From: Altererythrobacter sp. XM-24bin4
GTDB taxonomy: Bacteria; Pseudomonadota; Alphaproteobacteria; Sphingomonadales; Sphingomonadaceae
Assembly (NCBI GenBank): GCA_003149575.1
Contig: QCWG01000001.1
Coordinates: forward strand, 525,183 to 589,182
DNA: 64,000 nucleotides
Direction of reading: 5' to 3'
In this document: positions 6,982 to 44,290 of the stretch, in pieces
How the letters are laid out: the number at the start of each line of letters is the position of its first letter
How positions within the stretch are numbered: the first letter of the stretch is position 1
Made by a program: the position numbers and the translations under genes
Notes under the pieces: model-generated
Database searches by the model: none
The model's input: the letters and a program-made list of their open reading frames with translations, nothing else
Told to the model about the DNA's origin: nothing

Positions 6982-8259
6982 ATGGCTACTAAGATTGACC
7001 CTGGAACGGCGGATTTTGCCAGCCTTGTCGAAGGCCTCGCGCTCAAAGGGCGCGCGGCCCAGCGCAAACTTGCGGCGCTTTCGAGTGCGGCAAAGGCTGA
7101 CGCGCTGATGCAATCAGCCGCCGCCATTCGAGAAGACTCTGCTGCGATCCTCTCCGCCAATGCTCAGGACGTGGCTGATGGCGAGGCGCGAGGACTAACT
7201 GGTGCCATGCTGGACCGCCTCACCCTTGATCCAAATCGGTCAGAATCGATGGCCTCCGCCCTCGAGGCCGTGGCCAGCTTACCCGATCCGGTGGGCGATA
7301 TTATCGACAGTTCAACTCGGCCGAATGGTCTCGAGATCAGCCGGGTTCGTGTTCCGATCGGGCTGATTGGCATCATTTATGAAAGCCGCCCGAATGTGAC
7401 CGCTGACGCGGCTGCACTCTGCCTGCGATCCGGCAACGCAGCGTTGCTACGCGGAGGCAGCGAAGCGGCGCATTCGAACAGAGCCATTCACGCCGCCTTC
7501 GTCCGCGGGCTGACCGCATCGGGTCTGGCTCCGGAAATCGTGCAGCTGATGCCAACCCAGGATCGCGAAGCTGTTGGCGCGATGCTCAGGGCGGCTGGCC
7601 TGATTGACATGATTGTGCCCCGCGGGGGCAAAAGCCTTGTCGAGCGGGTACAGAACGATGCGCGGGTACCAGTGCTGGCGCATCTGGACGGCATTTGTCA
7701 CACTTACGTTCACTCGGCAGCTGATCCGGCGATGGCGCGCGAGATCGTAGTCAATGCCAAGATGCGCCGAACGGGCATTTGCGGGGCGATGGAGACATTG
7801 TTGATTGATGTCAGATTCACAGCAGCGGCCGACCTCGTGCGGGCCTTGCTTGATGCGGGCTGCGAAGTCCGGGGTGACTTGCGTGCTCAGTCGCTGAATA
7901 CTCAAGTTGTCTCGGCGAACGACAGTGACTGGGGCACGGAATATCTTGGCGCGGTTGTCTCGGTCGCAATTGTTGACGGGCTTGACGCTGCAATGGCGCA
8001 TATCGCGCGTCACTCTTCCAACCACACCGAAGCGATCATCACAGATGACCCGGACGCGGCCGAACGCTTCCTCGCCGAAGTCGACAGTGCGATCGTAATG
8101 CACAATGCATCGACCCAATTCGCTGATGGCGGCGAATTCGGACTTGGCGCGGAGATCGGCATTGCCACCGGGCGTCTTCATGCGCGCGGTCCGGTCGCGC
8201 TAGAGGGCCTCACCACCTACAAATGGCAAGTCCGTGGTAGCGGACAGGCAAGGCCATAA
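6982..8259 (+). CDS. proA: Glutamate-5-semialdehyde dehydrogenase
   Basis: Cytosolic enzyme of proline synthesis that reduces gamma-glutamyl phosphate to glutamate-5-semialdehyde with NADPH. The 425-residue protein carries the ALDH-fold motifs of ProA: IGIIYESRPNVTADAAALC, LRSGNAALLRGG, and VPRGGKSLVERVQ. The catalytic cysteine lies in KMRRTGICGAMETLL near residue 269. The C-terminal HNASTQFADGGEFGLGAEIG is also present. It is followed by nadD after 12 bases, the usual alphaproteobacterial order proA-nadD-rsfS-rlmH. No glutamate 5-kinase gene is nearby. Confidence 0.96.
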   Translation: MATKIDPGTADFASLVEGLALKGRAAQRKLAALSSAAKADALMQSAAAIREDSAAILSANAQDVADGEARGLTGAMLDRLTLDPNRSESMASALEAVASLPDPVGDIIDSSTRPNGLEISRVRVPIGLIGIIYESRPNVTADAAALCLRSGNAALLRGGSEAAHSNRAIHAAFVRGLTASGLAPEIVQLMPTQDREAVGAMLRAAGLIDMIVPRGGKSLVERVQNDARVPVLAHLDGICHTYVHSAADPAMAREIVVNAKMRRTGICGAMETLLIDVRFTAAADLVRALLDAGCEVRGDLRAQSLNTQVVSANDSDWGTEYLGAVVSVAIVDGLDAAMAHIARHSSNHTEAIITDDPDAAERFLAEVDSAIVMHNASTQFADGGEFGLGAEIGIATGRLHARGPVALEGLTTYKWQVRGSGQARP

Positions 8260-8271
8260 GTCCTGCGCAGC

Positions 8272-8940
8272 ATGACCCCCATCCGAACAGGCTTGCTGGG
8301 CGGCAGTTTCAATCCCGCACATGGCGGGCATCGCCGGATCACGCGCTATGCGATGGATGCGCTGGGGCTGGATGAAGTTTGGTGGCTGGTCTCGCCTGGC
8401 AATCCGCTCAAGCCGAAGAAAGGCATGGCGCCGCTTCCGGCACGGCTCAAATCGGCGGCGGATCAGGCGCGAGGCGTCCCTATTGTACCGACAGCGATCG
8501 AGCGGGATCTTGGAACACGATATACCGTCGATACACTCAGGGCGCTGACCCTGCGCTACCCCAAGCGGCAGTTCGTGTGGTTGATGGGATCAGACAATCT
8601 TGCGCAGTTTCACCTGTGGCGCAAATGGCGCACCATTGCCCGAACAATGCCGATTGCGGTCATCGCAAGGCCTGGCTATAACGGTGCTGCTTTGGCGAGC
8701 CCCGCCATGGCCTGGCTCAGGCGCTATCAGGTTCCGAACGCCAGCTTCTTCAACGGGGGCAATGGGAGCGCACCGGCACTGGTGTTATTGCGTTTTGATC
8801 CCGATCCACGTTCAGCCACGGCGATCCGCCGCGCTGATCCGGACTGGGCTTTGCGCTATGCCGGAGCTCCTCCTCGCGATCCACTGACTCATCGCCTGGT
8901 GCACGCCGGGCCAGAGGCTTGGGAAGAGGGGGGCTCATGA
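8272..8940 (+). CDS. nadD: Nicotinate-nucleotide adenylyltransferase
   Basis: NAD biosynthesis enzyme that transfers AMP from ATP to nicotinate mononucleotide. The 222-residue protein begins with the nucleotidyltransferase signature GLLGGSFNPAHGGHRRI, where the usual HxGH is met as HGGH near residues 17-20. It then has WWLVSPGNPLK and TRYTVDTLRAL, and WLMGSDNLAQFHLWRKW near residues 105-120. It lies 12 bases after proA in the same operon. Confidence 0.95.
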   Translation: MTPIRTGLLGGSFNPAHGGHRRITRYAMDALGLDEVWWLVSPGNPLKPKKGMAPLPARLKSAADQARGVPIVPTAIERDLGTRYTVDTLRALTLRYPKRQFVWLMGSDNLAQFHLWRKWRTIARTMPIAVIARPGYNGAALASPAMAWLRRYQVPNASFFNGGNGSAPALVLLRFDPDPRSATAIRRADPDWALRYAGAPPRDPLTHRLVHAGPEAWEEGGS

Positions 8941-11352: not shown

Positions 11353-12747
11353 ATGAGAATTGCTGATCTGCTGCGCAGCGCCGCTCTGGTTACAGCTGTG
11401 GCATTGATCCCGGCTACCACTGCCGGAATGGCGCAGATTGACGGGCGTGCAGGCCCGCAGTTTGCCAAGCTTTTTGCAGCATATCAGCAGGTCAAAGCCA
11501 ACTATGTCGAAGAAGTTGAGGATGACCAGCTTATCCGCGGCGCAATCAACGGCATGCTCGGTTCGCTTGATCCGCATTCGGCCTATGTCGATGGCAGCGC
11601 GCTGCAACGCCTGACAACCATGATCGACGGAAACTATTCGGGGCTTGGCCTTTCGGTCGTACTTGATGAAGGCGCGGTCAAAGTCGTTTCGCCGTTCAAG
11701 GGCAGCCCGGCTGACAAGGCGGGCATCAAGGCAGGTGACTTCATCACCCATCTCGATGGCGAGCTGATCTACGGCAATGATCTTGATACATCGGTTGCGC
11801 GGATGCGCGGCGCAGAGGGCACGTCGATTGAACTCACTATCTTCCGCCCAGGACGCGACGAGCCGATCGAGGTTTCCGTGACGCGCGGCGTTATCGAGTT
11901 GGAGCCTGTGACCTACGAGCTCCAGAGCGGCAATATCGGCGTGATATCTGTCAATGAATTCAGCACAAATGTGGGCCGTGATGTCTATGCCGCATGGGAA
12001 GCTTTGCAAAGCGAGGCCACGGGCAAGATGTCAGGTCTGATCCTTGACTTGCGCTCCAACCCCGGGGGGTCGCTTGATGAAGCCGTGGGATTGTCAGACC
12101 TGTTCCTGTCCGAAGGCCGGATCGTGTCCCAACGTGGTCGCGCTCGCGGTGAGAGCGTCCATTACGATGCGGACGAGCTGATCAACTATCGCCACCTGCC
12201 GCGCCGCGAAGCGCAGAAGTATATGGGCGAGATCGCTTCCGACATGCCCTTGATCGTACTGATCGATGCAGGTTCTGCATCAGCTTCAGAGATTGTAGCG
12301 GGCGCGCTGCAGGATCATCGCCGCGCTTTGGTGATGGGTGAGCGCAGTTTCGGCAAAGGCAGCGTGCAATCGCTTTTGCCGCTGGGTCGTGATTCCGCCA
12401 TCAAGCTGACAACGGCGCGCTATTACACGCCGGCCGGAAAGTCGGTTCAGGAAGGCGGCATCACGCCTGACATCAAGGTTCCGCAACTGTCCGATCCGGA
12501 TCTGGAAAAACGCAATAAATATCTCTTGCGCGAGAGCGATTTGCGCGGGCACCTCGTCAATGATCTGGGCGTTGAAGATGCCAAGGTTGAAGTCGATACA
12601 ATCGATGATCCGCGTTTCCAGCTGACCGCAGCAGAGCTTGAAGAGCAAGGCGTGGAAGACTTCCAGCTGCATTATGCGCTGGAAACCTTGCGTCGCACGA
12701 CGCGCGCGACGGTGGCTTTGCGCAACACTGTGGCGTTGCGCAATTAA
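11353..12747 (+). CDS. ctpA: S41 family C-terminal processing peptidase
   Basis: Periplasmic serine peptidase of the CtpA/Prc family, 464 residues. The signal peptide spans roughly residues 1-28 (VALIPATTAGMAQ). It then has an N-terminal helical segment with DPHSAYVDG, a PDZ domain (residues about 85-165, GLGLSVVLDEG, SPADKAGIKAGD) and the S41 catalytic core. The core serine is in DAGSASASEIVAGALQDH near residue 313 and the lysine in GERSFGKGSVQ near 338. The start is taken as ATG 11353 because GGAG lies nine bases before it; a TTG at 11338 would add five residues. It follows the envC-like gene after about 150 bases, the usual pairing. Confidence 0.94.
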   Translation: MRIADLLRSAALVTAVALIPATTAGMAQIDGRAGPQFAKLFAAYQQVKANYVEEVEDDQLIRGAINGMLGSLDPHSAYVDGSALQRLTTMIDGNYSGLGLSVVLDEGAVKVVSPFKGSPADKAGIKAGDFITHLDGELIYGNDLDTSVARMRGAEGTSIELTIFRPGRDEPIEVSVTRGVIELEPVTYELQSGNIGVISVNEFSTNVGRDVYAAWEALQSEATGKMSGLILDLRSNPGGSLDEAVGLSDLFLSEGRIVSQRGRARGESVHYDADELINYRHLPRREAQKYMGEIASDMPLIVLIDAGSASASEIVAGALQDHRRALVMGERSFGKGSVQSLLPLGRDSAIKLTTARYYTPAGKSVQEGGITPDIKVPQLSDPDLEKRNKYLLRESDLRGHLVNDLGVEDAKVEVDTIDDPRFQLTAAELEEQGVEDFQLHYALETLRRTTRATVALRNTVALRN

Positions 12748-28483: not shown

Positions 28484-28858
28484 GTGACAAACTCGCGGCA
28501 ACTGATGCACGAGGACGCCAAAACGCGTGTCCTGCGCTTGCTTGCAGAAAATCCTGAGGTCACGCAGCGCGAGCTGTCGCAAGCTGTGGGGATTAGTACA
28601 GGCAGTGTGCACTACCTCCTTAATGCCCTATTGGAGATGGGTCTCATAAAATTCGGTAATTTTAGCGCCAGCAAAGACAAGCGGCGCTACGCCTATATTT
28701 TAACGCCTCAAGGCATGGCTCAAAAGGCCGAGCTTACGCGCCGCTTCTTAGCGCGCAAACTTGAAGAATACGAAGTCTTGTCCCAAGAAATAGCAGCCCT
28801 CGAAGACGAGCTCGCGGATAGCAGTGCAGGGCGCAAGGCTAAGGGCCTATCCAAGTGA
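28484..28858 (+). CDS. MarR family EPS-associated transcriptional regulator
   Basis: DNA-binding protein of 124 residues of the EPS-associated MarR group, found beside EPS loci in several proteobacteria. The winged helix covers residues 14-75: RVLRLLAENPEVTQRELSQ, GISTGSVHYLLNALLEMGLI, then the wing KDKRRYAYILTPQG. A C-terminal helix (LTRRFLARKLEEYEVLSQEI) should dimerise. The GTG at 28484 has AAGGG about ten bases before it; ATG 28505 would lose seven residues. The stop overlaps the next gene by four bases. It probably binds the palindrome in the divergent region and controls both arms of the locus. Confidence 0.88.
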   Translation: MTNSRQLMHEDAKTRVLRLLAENPEVTQRELSQAVGISTGSVHYLLNALLEMGLIKFGNFSASKDKRRYAYILTPQGMAQKAELTRRFLARKLEEYEVLSQEIAALEDELADSSAGRKAKGLSK

Positions 28859-29895
28859 CTGAACTTATAACGCCTCTCATACTCTCTGGCGGTTCGGGCA
28901 CGCGCCTGTGGCCCCTCTCAACGCCAGAGCGACCCAAGCAATTCCTCAATCTTTACGGCGAAGGCACAATGATCGCTCAGACGATCCAGCGCGTTAACGA
29001 TGAGAACATGTTCACTTCGCCGATTGTGCTTGGCTCTGCCTCGCACGAGGGCCACTTGAGGACAGCCTTCTCTAAGGCTGGCGAAAAAACTGCCTCGATT
29101 ATTTTAGAGCCCTGCGCGCGCAATACCGCGCCTGCCATTGCCTTAGGCGCTTTTTATGCAGGAGAAGATGCGCTTCTTCTCGTAATGCCAAGCGACCATG
29201 TCATCCGAGACAATGACGCCTTTCTTGCAGCCTTAAAGCGCGCGCTGCCAGCGGCGATGAGCGGGCACTTGGTCACCTTCGGCATTGAGCCAACAGGCCC
29301 TGACACAGGCTTTGGCTACATTCGCGCAGGCGAAGCATTAGGCAGCGCACCTGGCGCATTTGATGTAGAGGCCTTTATTGAAAAGCCCGACGAGGCGCGC
29401 GCCCGCGCTATGCTTAACGAGGGCGGGCATTGCTGGAATGCCGGCATCTTCCTTTTTAAGTCTGGCGTCTTTTTGGAGGAGCTTGAGCGGCATCAGCCGC
29501 AAGTTTTTGCCGCCGCAAAGGCCGCCATTGAGCGCGCCTCGTCTTGGCGCAACATTACCTCGCCTCAGGCTGAAAAATTCGAAACCTCACCCTCCATCTC
29601 CGTCGACTACGCCGTCATGGAATTATCAGAACAGGTTGCTGTCGTGCCGATGTCTTGCGGTTGGTCTGATCTTGGCAGCTGGGATGCCTTGGCTGAGATT
29701 GGCGAGAAGGACGAGGCCGGCAATGTTATTATTGGCGAAGTGCGCGTGAAGGATGGCTTTGGCAATCTCATTAAGACAACCGGTCCGCGCGTGAGCACCA
29801 TTGGCATGCGCGATACGATTGTAGTTGTATCAGATGCGGAAGTTTTGATTATGCCTCGCGGCTCCTCGCAGCGCGTGAAGGATTTTGCCTCGTGA
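28855..29895 (+). CDS. manC: Mannose-1-phosphate guanylyltransferase
   Basis: Cytosolic enzyme making GDP-mannose from GTP and mannose-1-phosphate, 346 residues. It has the nucleotidyltransferase start LILSGGSGTRLWPLSTPERPK and then EPCARNTAPAIALGA, VMPSDHVI, GFGYIRAG and FIEKPDE. CGWSDLGSWDAL lies near residue 265. The family signature is complete, but the C-terminal isomerase domain of the bifunctional AlgA/ManC type is absent; the isomerase is encoded separately just downstream. The GTG start overlaps the MarR stop (GTGA). Confidence 0.93.
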   Translation: MTELITPLILSGGSGTRLWPLSTPERPKQFLNLYGEGTMIAQTIQRVNDENMFTSPIVLGSASHEGHLRTAFSKAGEKTASIILEPCARNTAPAIALGAFYAGEDALLLVMPSDHVIRDNDAFLAALKRALPAAMSGHLVTFGIEPTGPDTGFGYIRAGEALGSAPGAFDVEAFIEKPDEARARAMLNEGGHCWNAGIFLFKSGVFLEELERHQPQVFAAAKAAIERASSWRNITSPQAEKFETSPSISVDYAVMELSEQVAVVPMSCGWSDLGSWDALAEIGEKDEAGNVIIGEVRVKDGFGNLIKTTGPRVSTIGMRDTIVVVSDAEVLIMPRGSSQRVKDFAS

Positions 29896-29989
29896 TGCGC
29901 GCCTTCATCCCGGCTCAGATAACTGAGAGCAGTTGGCATTTGGTCATGATCAGTCTCGTGTTTCTGGCGCTATTGGCGAGGGCGCTTTG

Positions 29990-30796
29990 GTGAGACAATC
30001 CGCGCAGCTTTTAAGCGCCAAGCAGGTTATTAAGCCGTGGGGGCGCCGCGACCTGCCTGCGCCTTTTGAATTGAGCGGCGGGTCAAGCATTGGCGAGATT
30101 TGGTTTGAGCACGAGCGCGCGCCATTGGACTTGCTCGTCAAATATCTTTTTACTAGCGAAAAGCTCTCGATCCAGGTGCACCCCAGCGATGAGCTCGGCG
30201 CAGAAAAGGGGCTGCCTTCGGGCAAGGAGGAGTGCTGGCTGGTGCTCCATGCAGAGCCCGGCGCCGCCCTTGGGATTGGCACACGCGAGCCATTAACCTC
30301 TGACCAATTGCGCGCCGCCGCCCTCGATGGCTCGCTTGAGCAGCTGATGGACTGGAAGCCCGTATCTCGCGGCGATTTCTATTACATTCCGGCCGGCACG
30401 GTGCACGCGATCGGCGCAGGCGTGACACTGGTGGAGATCCAGCAGAACGCTGATATTACCTACCGCCTGTTTGATTATGGCCGTCCTCGCGAACTGCACC
30501 TTGACGAAGGGCTTGAGGCGGCGGCGGCCGGGCCATATCCAGATGATCTTGGAGGCAAGGTAAATTTCGCAGTCGACCAGCAGCTTGTGGCGGGGCCAAA
30601 GTTTGACCTGTGGCTGGGCTCCTCTTGGCCTGCTGAGGGTCTATCAAGCGAGCTTGCACATATTATTCCTCTGGTGGGCAGCGTTAGTGCCGAGGGCGTG
30701 AGCGCTAAGGCTGGCGAATGCCTGGTCTGTGCGCCGCGCGTACCTTTGGAAGTTGCGCCCGGCGCTCGTTTGCTTTTTGCGCAGGCGCGCAAATGA
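29990..30796 (+). CDS. manA: Class I mannose-6-phosphate isomerase
   Basis: Cupin-fold zinc enzyme that converts fructose-6-phosphate to mannose-6-phosphate for the GDP-mannose pathway. The core has KPWGRRDLPAPF, GEIWFE, the metal-binding LSIQVHPSDELGAEKG and KEECWLVLHAEPGA, and AGTVHAIGAGVTLVEIQQN near residue 140. The GTG at 29990 is chosen because GAGGG lies seven bases upstream; a longer open frame from 29933 has no such support. The length of 268 residues is short for the family but complete. It is the last GC-rich gene before the AT-richer cassette. No phosphomannomutase gene is in the window. Confidence 0.9.
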   Translation: MRQSAQLLSAKQVIKPWGRRDLPAPFELSGGSSIGEIWFEHERAPLDLLVKYLFTSEKLSIQVHPSDELGAEKGLPSGKEECWLVLHAEPGAALGIGTREPLTSDQLRAAALDGSLEQLMDWKPVSRGDFYYIPAGTVHAIGAGVTLVEIQQNADITYRLFDYGRPRELHLDEGLEAAAAGPYPDDLGGKVNFAVDQQLVAGPKFDLWLGSSWPAEGLSSELAHIIPLVGSVSAEGVSAKAGECLVCAPRVPLEVAPGARLLFAQARK

Positions 30797-30981: not shown

Positions 30982-32499
30982 ATGTGTGGAATATTTGTCA
31001 GTAACGATCCATTTTTGCCGAAAAACGCTAAGTCCATCCTTGAGAATCGGCTTAGGTTTCGCGGGCCCGACGGCACCAGCGGTCTTGTCGTAAGAAGTGA
31101 ATGGTCAACCTACCATTCTCGGTTAGCCATCATTGAATTACACTCAGGCGCAAATCAGCCCTTCGTAAATGACGATGGAAGCCAACTTATTTATAATGGA
31201 GAAATAGTAAATTTTGAGCATTTAGGATTTCGTTATTTTGGAAAAAAATACACAAGTGACGTTGCGCTCCTTAATGACTTAATCGTCGGAGATAAGCTAA
31301 AAATATCTGAACTTGATGGCTTCTTCGCTTTTATATTTATAGATGGAAATGGAATTTTACGCCATGCGTGCCGGGACAGGTTCGGAGTAAAGCCTTTATT
31401 TTACTATGAAACACCGAGAGGACACTATTCTTTCAGCTCAGAGCCTAGCGCTCTTATTGAATTGTACGATCTCAGCGTCAACCAAGATGCGATTTCAGAG
31501 TATCGCGCCTTTCGATATCCTTTGTTCTCTAAATCATTCTACAGTGGTATATTAGAGGTAAAGCCAGGTACTTGCCTGGTGGCTGGCCGCTATTTCGATT
31601 TAGAAACCTCCCTAGCTAATTCATCACAGTCTGTCGACCAATCGGAATTAGCCCTTGCCTTACAGAGGGGAGTGGCAAGCCGTTGTGTGTCAGATGCTCC
31701 TGTTGGCCTTCTTCTGAGTAAAGGAATCGATAGCAACCTAATCAAACATCAACATAAGTTTGATCGATTCTATACCGTTGGGTTCCCGGGAGACGAGGAC
31801 CTACAGTTCCTCCAAGGGTGCGGCATTAAGAACCTTACGACTAAGATCACATGTCCGGACGAATTTAGAGAGGCATTCTATCATTTGCTCAAACTGAAGA
31901 ATGAGCCGATGTCAGTTCCAAACGAGGTGCTTCTCTACCTCGTTGGAAGGGAGGCCGCTGCAGATGGTGTTAAAGTGCTGCTTTCGGGCGAGGGGGCCGA
32001 CGAATTTTTCGCAGGGTATGATAGAATTTTCAGCTGGGCAGCACAGGCTTCGAAATTCGATATTGACACATTCACGTCACTCTATTGTTATTCTGCGGTC
32101 GATCGCACCTCGGCCCTTTACTCCCGCCTCGAAAATGCATTTAATGAATTTGAAAGCGACAATGTTTTCCAGAAAGTCCGATGGTTCTTTATAAAATACC
32201 ACCTGCCTGTTCTTTTTCGCAGGCTCGACTTCTCACTCATGGCCGCTGGAATTGAGGGGCGTGAACCTATCGCAAACAGCCATCTGTTCGACGTAGCGAT
32301 AAAGCTTACTGCAGCCGATCTGATGAGGGATTCGCTAGGTAAATTGCCGCTTCGCCTTTTGGCTGAACAGGCAATGGGTAAAGAGTTCGCTTTCGCCAAG
32401 AAGGTTGGTTTTCCTGTTGACCTGACACAGATATTCCGAAACCCTAAGAACCTAAGTAGTTACGATTTGTGGTTCGAAAAAAACCTAGAGATATTATGA
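30982..32499 (+). CDS. Asparagine synthase-like glutamine amidotransferase
   Basis: Two-domain protein of 505 residues. It starts MCGIF, so Cys2 should become the N-terminal nucleophile of the glutaminase domain after Met removal. Residues to about 190 show RFRGPDG, HSRLAI, LIYNGEI and RDRFGVKPLFYY. The synthetase domain has GEGADEFFAGYDR near residue 335, as in asparagine synthases. The PP-loop reads LLLSKGIDSNL where SGGxDS is usual, so one glycine is a lysine. An ATG at 30967 adds five residues before the Cys and is not the start. It overlaps the TagD-like gene by four bases. It may amidate a sugar carboxyl in the EPS rather than make asparagine (inference). Confidence 0.82.
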   Translation: MCGIFVSNDPFLPKNAKSILENRLRFRGPDGTSGLVVRSEWSTYHSRLAIIELHSGANQPFVNDDGSQLIYNGEIVNFEHLGFRYFGKKYTSDVALLNDLIVGDKLKISELDGFFAFIFIDGNGILRHACRDRFGVKPLFYYETPRGHYSFSSEPSALIELYDLSVNQDAISEYRAFRYPLFSKSFYSGILEVKPGTCLVAGRYFDLETSLANSSQSVDQSELALALQRGVASRCVSDAPVGLLLSKGIDSNLIKHQHKFDRFYTVGFPGDEDLQFLQGCGIKNLTTKITCPDEFREAFYHLLKLKNEPMSVPNEVLLYLVGREAAADGVKVLLSGEGADEFFAGYDRIFSWAAQASKFDIDTFTSLYCYSAVDRTSALYSRLENAFNEFESDNVFQKVRWFFIKYHLPVLFRRLDFSLMAAGIEGREPIANSHLFDVAIKLTAADLMRDSLGKLPLRLLAEQAMGKEFAFAKKVGFPVDLTQIFRNPKNLSSYDLWFEKNLEIL

Positions 32500-32909
32500 T
32501 GATTGGTTACACTACTGGCGTTTTCGACCTATTTCATATCGGCCATGTAAACATGATCCGCAATGCGAAGGGCATGTGCGACAGGCTCATTGTGGGCGTT
32601 ACGGTTGATGAGCTAGTCTCCTATAAGAATAAAAAAGCTGTCATCCCCTTCGAGGAACGCATTGAGATCGTCCGGGCCTGCAGATATGTAGATCTAGCTG
32701 TGCCACAGGAATCGATGGACAAGCTGGACGCGCTTAGGCGTTACAAGTTCGACATCATGTTCGTCGGAGATGACTGGTACAAGAGCGACCGGTGGGAAGA
32801 TCTCGACCGCGATTTCTCCGCTCGAGGTGTCAAAATTCAGTATTTTCCCTATACGGTAACAACCTCATCAAGTTTAATAAATCAGACTTTGGAACAACTT
32901 CGTAAGTGA
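32496..32909 (+). CDS. TagD-like cytidylyltransferase (glycerol-3-phosphate type)
   Basis: Single-domain nucleotidyltransferase of 137 residues. It has GYTTGVFDLFHIGHVNMIRNA with the HxGH signature near residue 16, VGVTVDELVSYK, FVGDDWYKSDRW and the closing PYTVTTSSSLI. These fit the TagD/GCT family, which makes CDP-glycerol from CTP and glycerol-3-phosphate. The ATG at 32496 overlaps the previous stop (ATGA). The TagB/F-like gene at 36.6 kb would use CDP-glycerol as donor, so the pair supports glycerol-phosphate decoration of the polymer. Other cytidylyltransferase substrates cannot be ruled out. Confidence 0.85.
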   Translation: MMIGYTTGVFDLFHIGHVNMIRNAKGMCDRLIVGVTVDELVSYKNKKAVIPFEERIEIVRACRYVDLAVPQESMDKLDALRRYKFDIMFVGDDWYKSDRWEDLDRDFSARGVKIQYFPYTVTTSSSLINQTLEQLRK

Positions 32910-32946
32910 TTCCTTTGAAAACATCCTGCTTGATAGATAGAGCGGG

Positions 32947-32974
32947 TCCGACCTCCTTATTGGTCGGGATTTTT
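32947..32974 (+). terminator. Rho-independent terminator after the TagD-like gene
   Basis: CCGACC and GGTCGG form a six-base stem around an eight-base loop, with a T-G pair below it, and are followed by a run of five T. It ends immediately before the flippase start, so the flippase probably has its own promoter or depends on antitermination. Confidence 0.75.
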
Positions 32975-32984
32975 GCGTCCTACA

Positions 32985-34271
32985 GTGAATAAACCAAAAC
33001 TAGAACAGCGCGCATTCACACGACTATTCGCGGGCGTTTCTGCTCTCTATTTTGTCGGAATTCCGTTGACCATTATGGTCTCGATTGTTCTAGCCCGCAC
33101 ATTGAGTGTGGAAGAATTCGGTATGTTTGGCTTCATCATTTCGCTTGCCACAGTTTTAGCCATCCCAGTTACTGCAGGACTTCCAACTTTGTTGACACGC
33201 GAGGTTGCGGGCTACTCTTTGCGTAAAAATTGGGGATCATATCGCGGGTTATTTGTGTGGGCCCACGTTTGGGTTGTGACATTTTCAGCCGTTGTTGCTT
33301 TGGGAATTTTGGTATGGCTTCTGCTGGCGCGCGAGCCCAACAAGCTCGCGCTCATGGCGTGTGCTGCTATCATGCCATTTCTTGGTTTCACCGCGGTTCG
33401 GACAGGGATCCTCAAAGGCTTACAGCGCCCCATTCTCGCTGAGGCACCTTCTCAAATCATCCAGCCAGTTTTGCTCATAGCTGGTTACCTAGCGCTGGCA
33501 TATTTCGGCCTGTCCTCAGTTGAGAGTGTGCTTGTTTGGTATGTTTCAACAGCCGTCATCGTCTTTTTGATTGCATTAACGCTGCTGCTGCGCGCTCGGC
33601 CCGCTGCCGTGGCGACAGCATCTGTATCGTACACAGAAATGCCACGATGGTTCCGGTCGCTACCGGCCTTTGCCATGATCGGTGCTGTTGTTGCTCTTAA
33701 TGCGCAGATCGCCATATTATTGCTGGGTTCCGCCGGCTTGAACGAACAGGTTGCCTTCATGAGGGTTGCAGAAAGGGGCGCCCATCTTGTAGTATTTCCG
33801 CTCTATTTCGCTGGTGCTGTACTTGCCCCCTATTTGGTTGCAGCAATAAAAGCGGAAGACCGTGCAGAACTACAGAGAATCAACCGGTTTTCATCAAGAC
33901 TCGCGTTCTCCCTTTCGCTCTCTATCACTGTATTGCTTGCCGGGTTTGGCACTGAGATCATTGCCTTAACTTTTGGTGCCACCTATTCCGACGCCGCTCT
34001 GGCACCCATGTTGATCCTTGTTGCTGCTCAGACAGTGGCAGCTGCGTTGGGTGCATCCAATCTTCTCCTCACCATGAGTGAAAACGAGAATTTGGCGCTT
34101 CTCAGCCAAGCGGCCGGCTTGCTCATAATCTTCATTGTGACGCTCATGCTAATCAGTCGTTTTGGAGCAGTTGGTGCCGCAACGGGTGCTGCATCTGGGA
34201 TCATCGTAAATCGAGGAGTTGATTTCATAGCCGTGAGAGTAAGGCTTGGCTTTTGGCCTGGAATATTTTGA
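32985..34271 (+). CDS. wzx: Oligosaccharide flippase, Wzx type
   Basis: Integral membrane protein of 428 residues with about 12-14 predicted helices. It belongs to the polysaccharide transporter branch of the MOP superfamily that flips lipid-linked repeat units to the periplasmic face. The N-terminus ALYFVGIPLTIMVSIVLAR and the TLSVEEFGMFGFIISLATV segment are typical. GTG at 32985 is taken as start; a TTG at 32973 inside the terminator T-run is less likely. It follows directly behind a terminator. Confidence 0.88.
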   Translation: MNKPKLEQRAFTRLFAGVSALYFVGIPLTIMVSIVLARTLSVEEFGMFGFIISLATVLAIPVTAGLPTLLTREVAGYSLRKNWGSYRGLFVWAHVWVVTFSAVVALGILVWLLLAREPNKLALMACAAIMPFLGFTAVRTGILKGLQRPILAEAPSQIIQPVLLIAGYLALAYFGLSSVESVLVWYVSTAVIVFLIALTLLLRARPAAVATASVSYTEMPRWFRSLPAFAMIGAVVALNAQIAILLLGSAGLNEQVAFMRVAERGAHLVVFPLYFAGAVLAPYLVAAIKAEDRAELQRINRFSSRLAFSLSLSITVLLAGFGTEIIALTFGATYSDAALAPMLILVAAQTVAAALGASNLLLTMSENENLALLSQAAGLLIIFIVTLMLISRFGAVGAATGAASGIIVNRGVDFIAVRVRLGFWPGIF

Positions 34272-34579
34272 TGCAGTGTAGCCCAATAACGTTTGTTCAA
34301 CATCCGGCACTGACTGATCTAGCGCTGCGCCTCCCACGTAGGCGCTGGATCGTATTTGTCTTTTGGTAAACCCAAACTACCTGAAGAGTCTGATTTGTGA
34401 AGGAGAAGAGGTTCTCTTCGCTGGAGATCGACAATACACCTACATAGAACTTGGGCTTCGGATTGGCGCACTAACCCTTCTTGTAAATTATTGAACGAAA
34501 AATGCACCCAGCGCTGTGCTGCAAAGTGGTGCGCAAATTTTTGAAACTCCAAATGTCGTGCTGATTGACTACTTAGGGG
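34272..34579. other. Intergenic region, no gene recognised
   Basis: This 308-base gap lies between the flippase and the oxygenase genes. It has stop codons in all plus frames and no motif, strong hairpin or insertion end that could be seen. A 77-codon open frame on the minus strand (34319-34552) has no features of a real protein. Confidence 0.5.
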
Positions 34580-35407
34580 ATGGAGATGACAATGACCGAT
34601 GATTACCAGGCTTCGAGAGCGGTTTCGAAATTACTACAAGTAGGAGCGCAAAGTCTTTGGGCGAATGCGGAGCCATATCCATTCATAATTGTGGATGATT
34701 GGTTGGACTCAAATTGGGCGGATGAGGTCCATAATGAGATTCTTCAGGCCCCGACCAACCTTCAATCTAACGATTTTGTTTTCGCTAAGGCAAAGTTTGA
34801 GAATCCCGATTTTGCTCTTTTTGGGCCGGGTTGCTCAGCTTTACACTCTCTCTTAATAGGAACTGCATTTTCCGATGCGCTGTCAAAAATTACTGGACAG
34901 GATCTTATTATCGACCCTACCTTTTTAGGGGGCGGTGTTCATAGGGGCGGGCGGGGCTCCTATCTCGATATGCACACAGACTTCTTGGAGCACCCAAATA
35001 AGCCTAATCTCCATAGAAGGCTCAATATTTTGCTTTACCTGAATAAGAACTGGGAAAAGGGATGGGGTGGCGACCTCCGCTTACGCCACATTGAGGAAGG
35101 GGAAACTTTTTCTATTCCACCGATATTTAATCGCTTGGTCATCATGGAATCATCTGAGGTAACACTGCATGGATACACTAAAATAAACATCCCTGAGGGG
35201 CGATTCCGGACATCTGTGGCTGCTTATGCGTATTCATCCGAGCTTTCGTCCGGAGGAAGGTCGTTTACGACCTGGTACCCCGAAAAATCTTCCATAAGAA
35301 GATTGATAGCGCAATTTTTACCAATGGCCATTAGCCTAAAGCGCAGGTTCTTCGGTAGTAGGACCGCTTCTAGATCGGCAGAAGAAAAACAAAAGATCGA
35401 TGAGTGA
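34580..35407 (+). CDS. 2OG-Fe(II) oxygenase (prolyl 4-hydroxylase-like)
   Basis: Non-haem iron dioxygenase of about 275 residues. The double-stranded beta-helix core is visible: LDMHTDF with H-x-D near residue 133, NILLYLNKNWEKGWGGDLRL, VTLHGYTKI with the distal His near 195, and an Arg (RFRTSVAAYAYSSE) for 2-oxoglutarate. The family hydroxylates proteins or small molecules. Its location between flippase and glycosyltransferases suggests a sugar or acyl substrate, which is inference. In-frame ATGs occur at 34580, 34586 and 34592; GGAG lies six bases before 34592. It overlaps the next gene by eight bases. Confidence 0.82.
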   Translation: MEMTMTDDYQASRAVSKLLQVGAQSLWANAEPYPFIIVDDWLDSNWADEVHNEILQAPTNLQSNDFVFAKAKFENPDFALFGPGCSALHSLLIGTAFSDALSKITGQDLIIDPTFLGGGVHRGGRGSYLDMHTDFLEHPNKPNLHRRLNILLYLNKNWEKGWGGDLRLRHIEEGETFSIPPIFNRLVIMESSEVTLHGYTKINIPEGRFRTSVAAYAYSSELSSGGRSFTTWYPEKSSIRRLIAQFLPMAISLKRRFFGSRTASRSAEEKQKIDE

Positions 35408-36518
35408 TAATACGGTACACATTTTTGTCGAAGGGCACGCCTTAGATGGGAGCAGTCAAGGCGTCACCACATATATTGCTAATCTGTACAAGAATTTTGA
35501 GGCACGGCAATTTAATATCTTCGTAGGATTGGAACCGGGAAGTGATTTATCCGAGTATGAATTGAACGGCGATAACATTCATCCAATTTACTACTCTACC
35601 CAAAATAAATTTTGGCGCTACACCTATGAGATACCCTTACTGATCAAACGGCACAGTATTTCCGTTGCTCATTTCCAATACATTACCCCTTTATGGAAGA
35701 ATTGCAGTTGGATTACTACGATTCATGATATTCTTCCATTAGATTTTAGGAATCAATTTCCGTTATCCTTTCAAGTCACGCGCACTTTTTTCTACTGGGT
35801 GGCAGCGAAACGGTCAGATATTTGTTTGACAGTTTCCAACTATACAGCTGAAAGAATTCGGGCCCGTTTCGGAGCGGTGAAACATCTGGAGATCATAGAA
35901 AATGGCATTGATCAAAACGCGCTTGGATCTGACAGATTAGGTAGGCTATCCGGCGGGTCTAAAAAGCCCTATATATTATGCGTAAGCCGTTTCGAGAATA
36001 GAAAGCGACAACATTTACTGTTAGAGCTAATAGCACAGGGCATTATCGATACTTCTAAATTTGACATGATCTTTGTCGGCGCCGCCACACACGAGCGCAC
36101 AGAGTTTGATACTCGACTGCCTGCTATGCCTTCTAGGGATAGGAAAGCTATTTTTCGGTTTGAGCACGTGTCTACTGCTGAATTAACCAGCCTATACGAA
36201 GACGCAGTTTTGACAATTTACCCCAGTTTAGCCGAGGGGTTTGGCCTGCCCGTCATTGAGTCGTTTGCAAATGGAACACCCTGTTTCTTTGCAAATAATA
36301 CTGCCATGACTGATTTTCGTGATATCGCCCCCGAATTTGCTTTTGACAACCCGGATGATTTGAACCGAAAAATTGAACAATTTTTGCGCGAACCTAAATA
36401 TTTTAGTCGCAGTTTAGAAAATGCCAAACAAAAACTTCTCGAGCGTTATGATTGGAGTAGGAGTGCAGTAAGGCTACAAAAACTTATCTTTGAACTCGAT
36501 GGCGGACTGAATAAGTGA
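35400..36518 (+). CDS. Glycosyltransferase family 4
   Basis: GT-B retaining glycosyltransferase of 372 residues for EPS repeat-unit assembly. The N-terminal domain has GHALDGSSQGVTTYIANLY and the central TIHDILPLDF. The C-terminal donor domain has YILCVSRFENRKRQHLL, YEDAVLTIYPSLAEGFGLP, and VIESFANGTP with the E-x7-E motif near residue 280. Composition is AT-rich like its neighbours. It starts eight bases before the oxygenase stop. Donor sugar unknown. Confidence 0.88.
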   Translation: MSDNTVHIFVEGHALDGSSQGVTTYIANLYKNFEARQFNIFVGLEPGSDLSEYELNGDNIHPIYYSTQNKFWRYTYEIPLLIKRHSISVAHFQYITPLWKNCSWITTIHDILPLDFRNQFPLSFQVTRTFFYWVAAKRSDICLTVSNYTAERIRARFGAVKHLEIIENGIDQNALGSDRLGRLSGGSKKPYILCVSRFENRKRQHLLLELIAQGIIDTSKFDMIFVGAATHERTEFDTRLPAMPSRDRKAIFRFEHVSTAELTSLYEDAVLTIYPSLAEGFGLPVIESFANGTPCFFANNTAMTDFRDIAPEFAFDNPDDLNRKIEQFLREPKYFSRSLENAKQKLLERYDWSRSAVRLQKLIFELDGGLNK

Positions 36519-36591
36519 TGCGCGACACATTGATGAAAATCTAGCTTATACCGCAGGATATAGAGCACTCTAAGGCTTGCGTGAAAACAAA

Positions 36592-37716
36592 ATGATTCAA
36601 AATTCCCGTCTCTTTGCTCCCATTTTGGAATATGGGTTTCGCCTAGCCTACACCACACTGCACTTAATCTTATCTATTCTCCTCAAAAATGTATCCAGAA
36701 AAAAACCATGGGTTATATTTGGATCAGAATTCGGAGAAGAAAGTAGCCACATTAAAGGCGTGCTTCCCAAATTTATTGAGAGCTGTGATGCCGATGTCTT
36801 TTTTTACGACAAGAAGCTGAGGAGGCTCCGGCGCTTAGGAGCTCAAGAGCAGATTTACGGGCGTTTTGCTTCGTTGAGAATGCGTTTAGAAGCATCAGTT
36901 TATGTGGTTACGCACAATATTCGCGATATTTTCGTTATGAAGCCCCCGCACACTACTTTGATAAACCTTTGGCATGGCATCCCCATTAAACCGATAGGTT
37001 TCGACTCCCAAATCGAGAGGGCTATGCTTGCCAGGGTTAAGCGTAGGACTGGTTATTATCCTTATGAACAATGGGATCATTTGATCTGTTATTCTGAGCA
37101 CCACAAAGCTTTGATGGTGTCGGCCACGAGGGGCATGTGTAAAAATTACTCTATTCTAGGTAATCCTATGGTCGCTGCGCCGCGGGTAAAAGCCAACAAA
37201 AAAAAGTATGTCGTATACTTGCCGACGTTTCGGAATAAACCCGTCAACGATTTTCTTCTTCTAAAAAATTATGCCGAACTATCACTCGAAATCACATCGG
37301 GGAAGGCGGCGGATTGTACTCAAATTCTTAAGAAACACCCCTCGAGCCCTTCAGAAGGCCTGCCAAGCGGCTTATCAAAAATAATTTCAAACGAAACAGT
37401 TAGTAGCCTCCTGAATAAGGCAAGTATTTTAGTAACTGATTATTCGAGCGTAATCTTCGAAGCGATAGCGCTTAAAATTCCCGTGATATTGTATCGGCCC
37501 GATGCCCGAGAGTACCTTGAAACCTACGGTGAACTTTATGATTTGCCATATAATCCAAACGTAAAAGAGACCACCGCTTGCAGAGAGGCTGCAGGCTTAA
37601 TAAACCAACTTCTTATGAAAGATCAGGCTTTTGAAATAAGCGAGCTGACAACTGTAGAAACTTTTAGAGCCGATAAGTTCGTGGATTTGGTTAAAGATTG
37701 TTTATTGCAGCGTTGA
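36592..37716 (+). CDS. CDP-glycerol glycerophosphotransferase family protein (TagB/TagF-like)
   Basis: Membrane-associated glycerophosphotransferase of 374 residues. Motifs in order are WVIFGSEFGEESSHIKGV, INLWHGIPIKPIGFDS (the H-G-x-P-x-K family signature near residue 130), YEQWDHLICYSEHHK, VVYLPTFRN, and ILVTDYSSVIFEAIAL near residue 282. In Gram-positive bacteria this family adds glycerol phosphate from CDP-glycerol during teichoic acid synthesis. Here it should decorate or link EPS units. ATG 36592 is preferred to TTG 36577. The TagD-like gene in the same locus could supply the donor. Confidence 0.87.
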   Translation: MIQNSRLFAPILEYGFRLAYTTLHLILSILLKNVSRKKPWVIFGSEFGEESSHIKGVLPKFIESCDADVFFYDKKLRRLRRLGAQEQIYGRFASLRMRLEASVYVVTHNIRDIFVMKPPHTTLINLWHGIPIKPIGFDSQIERAMLARVKRRTGYYPYEQWDHLICYSEHHKALMVSATRGMCKNYSILGNPMVAAPRVKANKKKYVVYLPTFRNKPVNDFLLLKNYAELSLEITSGKAADCTQILKKHPSSPSEGLPSGLSKIISNETVSSLLNKASILVTDYSSVIFEAIALKIPVILYRPDAREYLETYGELYDLPYNPNVKETTACREAAGLINQLLMKDQAFEISELTTVETFRADKFVDLVKDCLLQR

Positions 37717-37764
37717 TATTCGAGTTCATGTTTAATCATACTGTACAGGTTATATATTAAGTCG

Positions 37765-38922
37765 ATGCTCACCAGAGACCATTTTCATCAATGCCTTAAG
37801 TATTTGGCTTTGTTCGTGTCTGCGTTCGCAGTCGTATTTATTTTTTTACCCGCTACTTTTGATTTACATGGCATAAATTATCGTTTCGATTTTACGACTA
37901 TTTTAGTGGGAAACTCGGTGCTGTTGGCAGTTCTCTGGTCTGCTTACGTGCTTTCTGCGTTAAACAAAAGCCAGCAGCGCGTAAGGGCTACGGTCATCCA
38001 AACAAATTCCACAATCAATGCTTACGAAATAAATGCAAAATTCGCTATATCTGCATTTTTGTCTTTAACTTCACTGTTCTTGTTTTATGCTATTTCTGGC
38101 GTTGCGATGCTTAATGCGGGGGCCGAGTTTGAAAGGGTGGCGCTAAAGGCAGGTAATGGTGAATATCTTATATTGGGCACAGCGTTTGCATATGTCACCA
38201 TTGGGTACGTTGAAGAAAGCTATACTATCATTAAAAAGGCGGTTTCCCTCACCCTTTTAACCTTGTTGGCCTTCTCTGGTTTCAAGACACCCTTTCTTAT
38301 TGGATTAATCATTTTGTTTGCCCCTCGCGAAATGCGCAATATTTTTGCTTGGCGATACTTATTTCTGACATCCGGGATATTCGTTTTAGTGGCGTTTTAC
38401 GATTCTTGGCGGCTGGATTCTACTACTCTCAATTTAATCGATACTTGGATGTGGAAGCTCGCGATACCGCTATATAATTCGTCTTATGTTTTGGAATTTG
38501 TCGCAGCATATCAAAGCGGCATAGGCAGCTTAATTGCTCGCGATGTATCAGCCTTCGTTGGCGACGGCCCTTTTTCCGGGGCTTGGATCCACAGTCAAAT
38601 GCCTGGCTTGGGGGCTGTAGAGAGCATTAGCGTCCCGATTGCAGCAGAAGGATTTGCTAACTTTCGTGCGCCGGGCTTCATCATCTATCCTATTTGTCTC
38701 ATTATTGTTGCGGCGGCTCTCTCTTACCTTCCAGAGATCACGAAAGTAGACGGTCGGGCATGGGCTTTTCTAGTGAGCTTCATTTTGGCAAAATGTACTA
38801 TTTCTGGGTTTTTCTTATCGATGATCTTCACCCTTGGCCCTGTTGTCTTGGCGTTATTAATAGTTAACGCAACTTGGACCCTCTTCAGCAGGTCTAAGTT
38901 CTTACACCGCGGTCATAGATAG
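37765..38922 (+). CDS. Oligosaccharide repeat-unit polymerase, Wzy-like
   Basis: Integral membrane protein of 385 residues with about ten predicted helices (LFVSAFAVVFIFLPATF, LISLISLFLFYAISG-type segments) and a periplasmic loop around residues 255-305. It is too divergent for a motif-based call, as Wzy proteins usually are. Size, topology and position between the glycosyltransferases, flippase and rhamnose genes make Wzy the best candidate. It is strongly AT-rich. The O-antigen-ligase-type protein at 23.1 kb is the competing polymerase candidate. Confidence 0.7.
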   Translation: MLTRDHFHQCLKYLALFVSAFAVVFIFLPATFDLHGINYRFDFTTILVGNSVLLAVLWSAYVLSALNKSQQRVRATVIQTNSTINAYEINAKFAISAFLSLTSLFLFYAISGVAMLNAGAEFERVALKAGNGEYLILGTAFAYVTIGYVEESYTIIKKAVSLTLLTLLAFSGFKTPFLIGLIILFAPREMRNIFAWRYLFLTSGIFVLVAFYDSWRLDSTTLNLIDTWMWKLAIPLYNSSYVLEFVAAYQSGIGSLIARDVSAFVGDGPFSGAWIHSQMPGLGAVESISVPIAAEGFANFRAPGFIIYPICLIIVAAALSYLPEITKVDGRAWAFLVSFILAKCTISGFFLSMIFTLGPVVLALLIVNATWTLFSRSKFLHRGHR

Positions 38923-38929
38923 GCGAATT

Positions 38930-40003
38930 ATGTCAAAAATTGCAATAATTGGCTCTGTTGGAATCCCAGCGAGATACGGTGGATTTGAAACTCTTGTAGA
39001 AAATTTGGTCCAATCAAAAACTGCCGAGGGTTTGCCAATAACTGTCTATTGCTCCTCCAAAGCTTATCACGTTAAGCGTAAGTGTTACAAAGGAGTAAGG
39101 TTAAAATACATCAATTTTCATGCTAACGGTCTAGCATCTATTATTTACGACACCTTGAGCATTGTCGATGCCATTATGTGCCAGCATAGACGATTGCTAA
39201 TTCTGGGGGTTTCCGGAGCTCCGGTCCTTCCGCTCGTTAGATTATTTTGCAAGACTCAAATTATCGTTAACTTAGATGGCGTAGAGTGGAAAAGACAGAA
39301 ATGGTCTTTCCTAGCCAAACTTTATCTCCGCATTGCCGAATGGTTCGCAGTAAAGTTCTCACACGTGGTAATCGCTGACAATCGAGCCATCGCCGATTAC
39401 CTCAGCGAAAGTTTCGGCTGTGACGCCAAGGTCATCCCATACGGAGGTGATCATGCAATCGAGGCGGTGCCGGATCCCGAAGCAGCGGCACATCTGCCAG
39501 AGGGCTATGCACTTGGGTTATGTCGCATTGAGCCGGAGAACAATATAGGTATGATCCTAGAAGCCTTTGATAGAATTAGTATGCCGCTTGTCTTCATTGG
39601 CAATTGGGACAAGAGCGCATATGGCCAGTCTCTTAAGGCGAAATATGCCAACCACCCGACCATTACCATCCACGGCCCGATTTATGATCCGCGGGGTCTG
39701 CGCGCCGTTCGCGACAGAGCTCAGCTTTACCTCCATGGTCATTCAGCGGGGGGGACCAACCCGGCGCTGGTCGAGATGATGCATTTTGGAATCCCGATTG
39801 CCGCTTACGACTGTAGCTTCAACCGTCATACGACTGAAAATAAGGCGCTATATTTTAAAACCGCGGACGAACTGCGCACTTTAGTCAGCTTGCTTGCACT
39901 CGAGAGCTCTGCAAGCGGTGCTCGTGAGATGGTTGAGATCGCGCAGCGTCGCTACACTTGGGACGTTATTGGCAAAGCCTATTTCGCGTTGCTGGAGGGC
40001 TGA
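38930..40003 (+). CDS. DUF1972 glycosyltransferase, rhamnosyltransferase-like
   Basis: GT4-type enzyme of 357 residues with the DUF1972 N-terminal domain (IAIIGSVGIPARYGGFETLVE at the very start, given in part). Related streptococcal enzymes transfer L-rhamnose, which fits the dTDP-rhamnose genes that follow five bases later. The C-terminal domain has CRIEPENNIGMILEAF and GHSAGGTNPALVEMMHFG. Base composition changes inside the gene: the first half is AT-rich like the cassette, and the last third is GC-rich like the rfb genes. This suggests an old recombination point within it. Confidence 0.87.
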   Translation: MSKIAIIGSVGIPARYGGFETLVENLVQSKTAEGLPITVYCSSKAYHVKRKCYKGVRLKYINFHANGLASIIYDTLSIVDAIMCQHRRLLILGVSGAPVLPLVRLFCKTQIIVNLDGVEWKRQKWSFLAKLYLRIAEWFAVKFSHVVIADNRAIADYLSESFGCDAKVIPYGGDHAIEAVPDPEAAAHLPEGYALGLCRIEPENNIGMILEAFDRISMPLVFIGNWDKSAYGQSLKAKYANHPTITIHGPIYDPRGLRAVRDRAQLYLHGHSAGGTNPALVEMMHFGIPIAAYDCSFNRHTTENKALYFKTADELRTLVSLLALESSASGAREMVEIAQRRYTWDVIGKAYFALLEG

Positions 40004-43381: not shown

Positions 43382-44290
43382 TCACGCCCAAACGTTCTGC
43401 TCTGCCTTTTCGAGATAGCGCGCAAGCACATTCACAGACTTCCAGCCGCCAGCGCGCATAATCGCCGCTGTATCAAACCCCCGCTTCAACAAATCCTGTG
43501 CAGCGCCGACGCGCATTGAGTGCCCGCTGAAGGACGCAACTTGGTCTGCGCGTAGACCACAGCGTTGCGCTGCCTCCTTAATAACCCGCTTCACAGTGGT
43601 CGTCTCGAGGCAGCGGTCGATGACCTTGCCCTGATAGATTGGGCAGAACAGCCACTCGATGTCCTGCCCGCGGTAGTCAAGCCACTGCCGGACAAGCTCA
43701 GCCGTCCGCACTGACGTGAACGCGACCCGGCCGACACCAAAGGGGTCAGCCTTGCCCCTGCGGATAAGCACGCGCAATGTGCCATCATCGCGCAGAGTGA
43801 TATCTGAGTTGCGCAGCGCGATGAGTTCCGAGCGCCGCGTCAGTAATTCGTAGCCAAGCGATAGCATGGCGCGATTGCGCAGGCCCCAAGGGCTGTTGGG
43901 CTCACTCTCCAAAAATCGGTCAAGATATGGACGCGTGAGGCCCTTGGCCTGGCGCGGCCTCACTGCGTTTGCGCGCCGTACGCGGCGGAAGGTCAGATTG
44001 ATCTCTTCGTCATAAGTCGGGTCTGGCAGGCGCAACAGCCTGTGCACCTTGCGAATGGCGTAAAGGCGACGCTGGACAGTTGAGGGGGCCTTGCATGCGC
44101 CCTCATTTTCGAGAAACTGGCATACGGTTTCAACGCTGGCGGGGAAGGGCCGATCGATCCCTCGCGCAACACACCAATTCTCAAAAGCCTCGACATCTGC
44201 ACGGTAACTGAGCATTGTTGCAGGAGCATAGGCGCCCTCAAGGCGCTTGAATTCGGAGCGCCAATCTATTTCGCGGTCTGCGAGTTGCAT
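43382..44290 (-). CDS. Tyrosine recombinase/site-specific integrase
   Basis: DNA recombinase of 302 residues. A SAM-like N-terminal domain (YRADVEAFENWCVARGI) is followed by the catalytic domain: Arg152 in TRRSEL, Lys near 180 in IRRGKADP, HSMR (His257, Arg260), Trp283 in GGWKS at the usual His/Trp place, and the nucleophile Tyr292 in ARYLE. All catalytic residues are present, so it may be active. It is convergent with rfbA and divergent from the XRE gene. No target tRNA or att repeat was recognised near it. Confidence 0.9.
   Translation of the reverse strand: MQLADREIDWRSEFKRLEGAYAPATMLSYRADVEAFENWCVARGIDRPFPASVETVCQFLENEGACKAPSTVQRRLYAIRKVHRLLRLPDPTYDEEINLTFRRVRRANAVRPRQAKGLTRPYLDRFLESEPNSPWGLRNRAMLSLGYELLTRRSELIALRNSDITLRDDGTLRVLIRRGKADPFGVGRVAFTSVRTAELVRQWLDYRGQDIEWLFCPIYQGKVIDRCLETTTVKRVIKEAAQRCGLRADQVASFSGHSMRVGAAQDLLKRGFDTAAIMRAGGWKSVNVLARYLEKAEQNVWA

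Follow-up and report, generated by a model that had tools for sequence, protein, structure and literature searches.

The S-layer protein glycan of Paenibacillus alvei carries GroA-2-phosphate on ManNAc, and the corresponding gene cluster holds tagD together with wsfA, which encodes a homologue of asparagine synthase, and the PF04464-type gene wsfC, whose glycerophosphotransferase domain was proposed by the authors to add this group (PMC2943079). For Providencia alcalifaciens O22, known here from its structure alone, D-glyceramide 2-phosphate (D-GroAN-2-P) was described on GalNAc (PMC6222762), and in some E. coli serogroups an alditol or glyceric acid is attached through a phosphodiester (PMC9912281). 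In Caulobacter, CpgD converts CTP and D-2-phosphoglycerate, its preferred substrate, to CDP-glycerate; this reaction is established, the enzyme has an IMPCT-like fold unrelated to TagD and serves a sphingolipid headgroup, and no AsnB is reported in the part of the source covered here (PMC12275187). CDP-activated glycerol is used in the teichoic-acid system of B. subtilis, with TagD and TagB/TagF, which leads to a polyglycerolphosphate chain, and TagF-like capsule polymerases of Gram-negative pathogens build the polymer backbone (PMC5974469; Cps3D, 8QOY).

We analysed a stretch of 64,000 nucleotides from Altererythrobacter sp. XM-24bin4 (contig QCWG01000001.1), called the window in the following. 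An earlier note had described a glycerol-phosphate module in an EPS locus of this window, namely a TagD-like cytidylyltransferase and a TagB/TagF-like transferase in the same cassette as a flippase and a polymerase. Immediately upstream of the cytidylyltransferase gene, beyond the part covered by that note, lies an AsnB-like gene. The features of the cassette are:

30982-32499, forward strand: AsnB-like glutamine amidotransferase (PF00733, E=1e-36, and PF13537; glutamine amidotransferase domain with Cys2 plus asparagine-synthase domain)
32496-32909, forward strand: TagD-fold cytidylyltransferase of an AsnB-linked clade (PF01467, fold model, tree and motifs)
32973-34271, forward strand: Wzx-type flippase (PF01943, E=2e-11; 11 hydrophobic segments)
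34580-35407, forward strand: 2OG-Fe(II) oxygenase-like protein (PF13640, E=3e-16)
35400-36518, forward strand: GT4 glycosyltransferase (PF00534, PF13439)
36592-37716, forward strand: TagF/TagB-like phosphotransferase (PF04464, fold model and catalytic residues)
37765-38922, forward strand: putative Wzy-type polymerase (position; 8 hydrophobic segments)
38930-40003, forward strand: rhamnosyltransferase-like glycosyltransferase (Cps2T/DUF1972), followed by dTDP-rhamnose genes up to 43372

Just past the rhamnose genes, a tyrosine recombinase is encoded on the reverse strand (43382-44290). At 28855-30796, a ManC-type guanylyltransferase is followed by a separate phosphomannose-isomerase-like ORF, which resembles a split of the usual two-domain enzyme.

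In our reading, the cassette probably serves to make and transfer a phospho-acid in amide form, for which D-glyceramide 2-phosphate is the most likely candidate, with CDP-glyceramide and not CDP-glycerol as the donor because of the linkage to AsnB, the separate clade of the cytidylyltransferase, and the structures known from P. alvei and Providencia O22. The likeness to P. alvei rests on gene types, three of which are common to both, whereas P. alvei uses an ABC-transporter pathway, decorates an S-layer protein glycan, and was reported to carry the free acid, not the amide. The reaction proposed for the cytidylyltransferase of the window is the same as that of CpgD. With the teichoic-acid system the window has in common the cytidylyltransferase fold and the PF04464 fold with its catalytic histidines, but its cytidylyltransferase belongs to a separate clade with Tyr in place of R113 and an AsnB partner in most relatives, and the polymer is a Wzx-exported repeat unit. 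As in the TagF-like capsule polymerases, a TagF-like domain serves a Gram-negative surface polymer, though here it forms a single-domain transferase accompanied by a separate flippase and a probable polymerase.

The cytidylyltransferase gene, from the ATG at 32496 to the stop at 32909, encodes 137 aa. Its product matched PF01467 (CTP_transf_like) with E=1e-21, and the HxGH motif is present as HIGH. Foldseek analysis of an AlphaFold2 model (pLDDT 91.3, 43-sequence alignment) revealed B. subtilis TagD as the best match (1COZ, TM 0.83/0.90), followed by S. aureus 2B7L and the Fom1 domain 5X3D, so that the TagD-like enzyme of the earlier note is confirmed as such. The top NCBIfam match was TIGR01518 (glycerol-3-phosphate cytidylyltransferase) with 90.9 bits, below the cut-off of 165.4; taken alone, this test is strict, since no genome in our sample of the window's class passed it either. 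The TagD signature RTxGISTT is absent as well, the sequence being PYTVTTSSS where TagD has PRTEGISTT. In a FastTree phylogeny with B. subtilis TagD as the root (the sequence used agrees with the 1COZ rows), the AsnB-linked cytidylyltransferases formed one clade, which also took in a few unlinked members. All 73 AsnB-linked sequences revealed Tyr in the column of TagD R113 and Cys in that of residue 28, while the R113 column of 31 unlinked sequences held Tyr (18), Arg (12), or His (1).

For the transferase, the best start is the ATG at 36592, giving a protein of 374 aa that ends at 37716 and matched PF04464 with 100.8 bits (gathering score 22.1, E=1e-28). The 2.53 Mb genome encodes no second PF04464 protein. 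Its model (pLDDT 78) was structurally closest to TagF (3L7I-M), then to Cps3D (8QOY) and TarL (8VA1), and the invariant residues of the family are kept in WHG (H128), H249, and TDYSS (D283, S285), which bears out the TagB/TagF-like assignment, including the catalytic histidines. Identity to the transferases of E. coli O82 and Providencia is just 25-27% (27% for O82). We propose this protein as the phosphoglyceramide transferase. LicD was considered as an alternative transferase in the window and rejected, as no LicD gene was found in the genome.

The end of the AsnB-like gene overlaps the start of the cytidylyltransferase gene by four bases (ATGA), an overlap also kept in a genome of the same order (G040), in E. 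coli O82, and in Providencia rustigianii. Over its full length, the window AsnB is 53% identical to the partner in P. rustigianii and 50% to that in E. coli O82. Its N-terminus, MCGIF, contains the Cys nucleophile, and its PP-loop reads SKGIDSN compared with SGGxDSS in the family. This rare loop is common to the window, E. coli O82, and Providencia, with SRGIDSN in Marinomonas; decay of the loop was rejected because E. coli O82 and Providencia have the same one. The gene is the sole AsnB homologue found in its genome, and the homologues of genus relatives are just about 30-34% identical to it and mostly longer. A housekeeping asparagine synthetase was also rejected, given this low identity, the module-type character of the gene, and the fusion of its partners to the cytidylyltransferase elsewhere. 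Since the AsnB family makes amides from carboxylates, glycerate, and not glycerol, would be the sensible substrate, and we propose the window AsnB as the amidating enzyme for CDP-glycerate or phosphoglycerate. Overall, AsnB partners fall into two types, one full-length with a glutaminase domain and the motif LSGEGADE, the other a synthetase-only form of about 350 aa with LSGGxDSA. The latter, lacking the glutaminase, makes up most partners in Firmicutes and Bacteroidota (L049 and many of L055-L134), so that their nitrogen may instead come from ammonia or a different amine.

A contig scan with five cytidylyltransferase queries yielded at least 577 stretches with relatives, the best 80 of which (56-73% identity to the window cytidylyltransferase) were examined by profile searches. 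In these 80 loci, an AsnB-like gene was adjacent, i.e., within 300 bases, in 59 cases, part of the same ORF in six, and elsewhere in the locus in five. Adjacent or fused genes thus account for 65 of the 80 (81%), a share that describes this neighbourhood of the family, since the loci were selected by likeness to the window. AsnB was absent from the flanking DNA examined in ten of the 80, some of them at contig ends; the closest relative among the matches listed, from Psychrobacter, belongs to these ten. The AsnB-linked loci among the best 80 come from Proteobacteria, Firmicutes, Bacteroidota, and archaea, and many of the 80 also contain a PF04464 or LicD gene. No glycerate kinase was recognised among the recurring neighbours, inspected by eye for the largest clusters. 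In the window, the AsnB-like gene adjoins a cytidylyltransferase of the PYT clade and a PF04464 gene lies in the locus; this complete trio was also identified in G040 and in Lactiplantibacillus plantarum.

Single ORFs of about 490-505 aa combining AsnB and cytidylyltransferase were detected in six loci (L117, L119, L124, L125, L128, and L059). The Psychrobacter fozii locus L055 harbors two cytidylyltransferases of the family (7914-8414 and 11871-12281), one beside PF04464 and one beside LicD, with no AsnB within 8 kb. A plasmid of Gemmobacter aquarius (L050, 8237-10300) carries an SDR-cytidylyltransferase-LicD set without AsnB, perhaps for another CDP-activated group.

As a control, we used 33 cytidylyltransferase-fold loci, comprising 29 of the 30 fetched by TIGR01518 in the sample of the window's class (the window's own being excluded) and four in relatives. 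This control is mixed and includes PRTxxISTT TagD-like genes beside PF04464 as well as more distant HldE-like proteins. None of the 33 had an AsnB gene in flanks of about 1.5 kb per side. The window's class contains PRTxxISTT TagD-like/PF04464 pairs with no AsnB neighbour in such flanks, and these look like true CDP-glycerol systems.

Such pairs bear on the reading closest to that of the earlier note, in which the cassette would make and use CDP-glycerol in the manner of teichoic-acid systems and the neighbouring AsnB would serve something else. Both the nearest solved structure and the top NCBIfam model are glycerol-3-phosphate cytidylyltransferases, and the transferase is TagF-like. However, the TIGR01518 score stays below the cut-off, the R113 column holds Tyr, the AsnB partnership and the fusions are specific to the window's clade, and genuine-looking TagD/PF04464 pairs of the class do without AsnB, so that we consider CDP-glycerol unlikely.

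On the level of gene order, the cluster of E. coli O82 (NCTC9082) follows the window with AsnB, cytidylyltransferase, wzx, PF04464, wzy, and glycosyltransferases. The window has two extra genes, for the 2OG oxygenase and the GT4 glycosyltransferase, and no counterpart of the former was found in the related loci scanned. The cytidylyltransferases of both clusters are 62% identical. The order AsnB-cytidylyltransferase-Wzx-transferase is also that of P. rustigianii. One difference is that the O82 cluster encodes an LPS O-antigen and the window an EPS. No open text on the structure of the O82 O-antigen was found in the open literature; we take it to contain glyceramide phosphate. In the O82-type cluster of E. 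coli HCP30S3_I2 (L136, 9547-11847), an IS1 splits the AsnB-like gene, which offers a natural test of its role.

The polymerase candidate is without a Pfam family match and sits at the position of wzy in E. coli O82; its hydrophobic segments are compatible with Wzy identity, but are not proof. Of the cassette partners named earlier, the flippase is well founded on PF01943, while the polymerase is a probable one.

In the pathway that we propose, the TagD-fold enzyme would convert CTP and D-2-phosphoglycerate to CDP-D-glycerate, and the AsnB-like enzyme would amidate the carboxylate at the expense of glutamine and ATP, yielding CDP-glyceramide; both steps could run in either order. Judging by its family fold and catalytic residues, the TagF-like enzyme would move phosphoglyceramide onto a hydroxyl group of the repeat unit on its lipid carrier, and the flippase and the polymerase would export and polymerise the decorated unit. 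CDP-glyceramide is proposed as the donor since the amide of O22, D-glyceramide 2-phosphate, fits the product of AsnB. A biochemical description of any enzyme of the AsnB-linked clade was not found in the literature.

The transferred group could also stay unamidated, so that a CDP-glycerate system would give an EPS with phosphoglycerate and AsnB would amidate a uronic acid or act in another step. Uronic acids are known substrates of amidating enzymes of the AsnB-like type, and P. alvei carries the acid in spite of its AsnB homologue, which is a point against the amidated product. On the other hand, the AsnB-cytidylyltransferase fusions and the translational overlap point to one pathway, and glyceramide phosphate does exist in Providencia O22; we therefore regard phosphoglycerate as rather improbable. 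A different acid or alcohol in phosphorylated or phosphonate form, e.g., a Fom1-like phosphonate, is highly improbable as the CDP-activated group: though the Fom1 cytidylyltransferase domain (5X3D, the third-ranked structural match), which acts on hydroxyethylphosphonate, has the same IPYT..SST motif, hydroxyethylphosphonate offers AsnB no carboxylate, no mutase was seen among the recurring neighbours inspected, and the phosphonate donor was rejected as the phosphoenolpyruvate mutase model gave no match in the genome.

Returning to glyceramide phosphate as the preferred product, the idea of a CDP-activated small molecule transferred as a phosphodiester to a Wzx-exported polysaccharide survives, based on the TagD and TagF homologues, whereas glycerol as this molecule probably does not, considering the AsnB-linked clade and the known structures with glyceric acid or glyceramide. 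In line with the earlier note, the substituent would add one negative charge per phosphodiester, and none extra from the acid if it is amidated.

With regard to distribution, the clade profile exceeded 150 bits in two genomes (the window's and G430) of a 385-genome sample of the window's class, and the module is rare in this class, with two clear cases in 385 genomes. Two further cases, G040 and Thalassorhabdomicrobium, were identified outside this sample, and 36 other genomes of the genus searched revealed weak matches to the cytidylyltransferase at most. The GC content is 42-50% at 31000-39500 of the window compared with 55-60% across most of the remaining window, a drop which, together with the tyrosine recombinase past the rhamnose genes, suggests that the cassette was probably acquired horizontally.

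Altogether, the module is real and is most likely to be re-read from glycerol phosphate to glyceramide (or glycerate) phosphate, as far as homology and gene context indicate. In a wider sense, to which we give about even chances, a widespread module of AsnB and a distinct TagD-fold enzyme would make CDP-glyceramide for the decoration of surface glycans by TagF-like or LicD proteins in bacteria and archaea, the window being a rare alphaproteobacterial case. While the chemistry is already known, our search of the open literature yielded neither a CDP-glyceramide enzyme nor the biosynthesis of such a surface group nor this gene assignment, which leads to a direct and testable prediction of a pathway with three enzymes that sets out from an intermediate of glycolysis. 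Genes of the TagD and TagF type are easily labelled as glycerol-phosphate or CDP-glycerol genes, and an AsnB partner would be a simple rule separating glycerol-phosphate loci from those for glyceramide or glycerate phosphate. If true, this rule would connect the known structures of P. alvei and Providencia O22 with genes.
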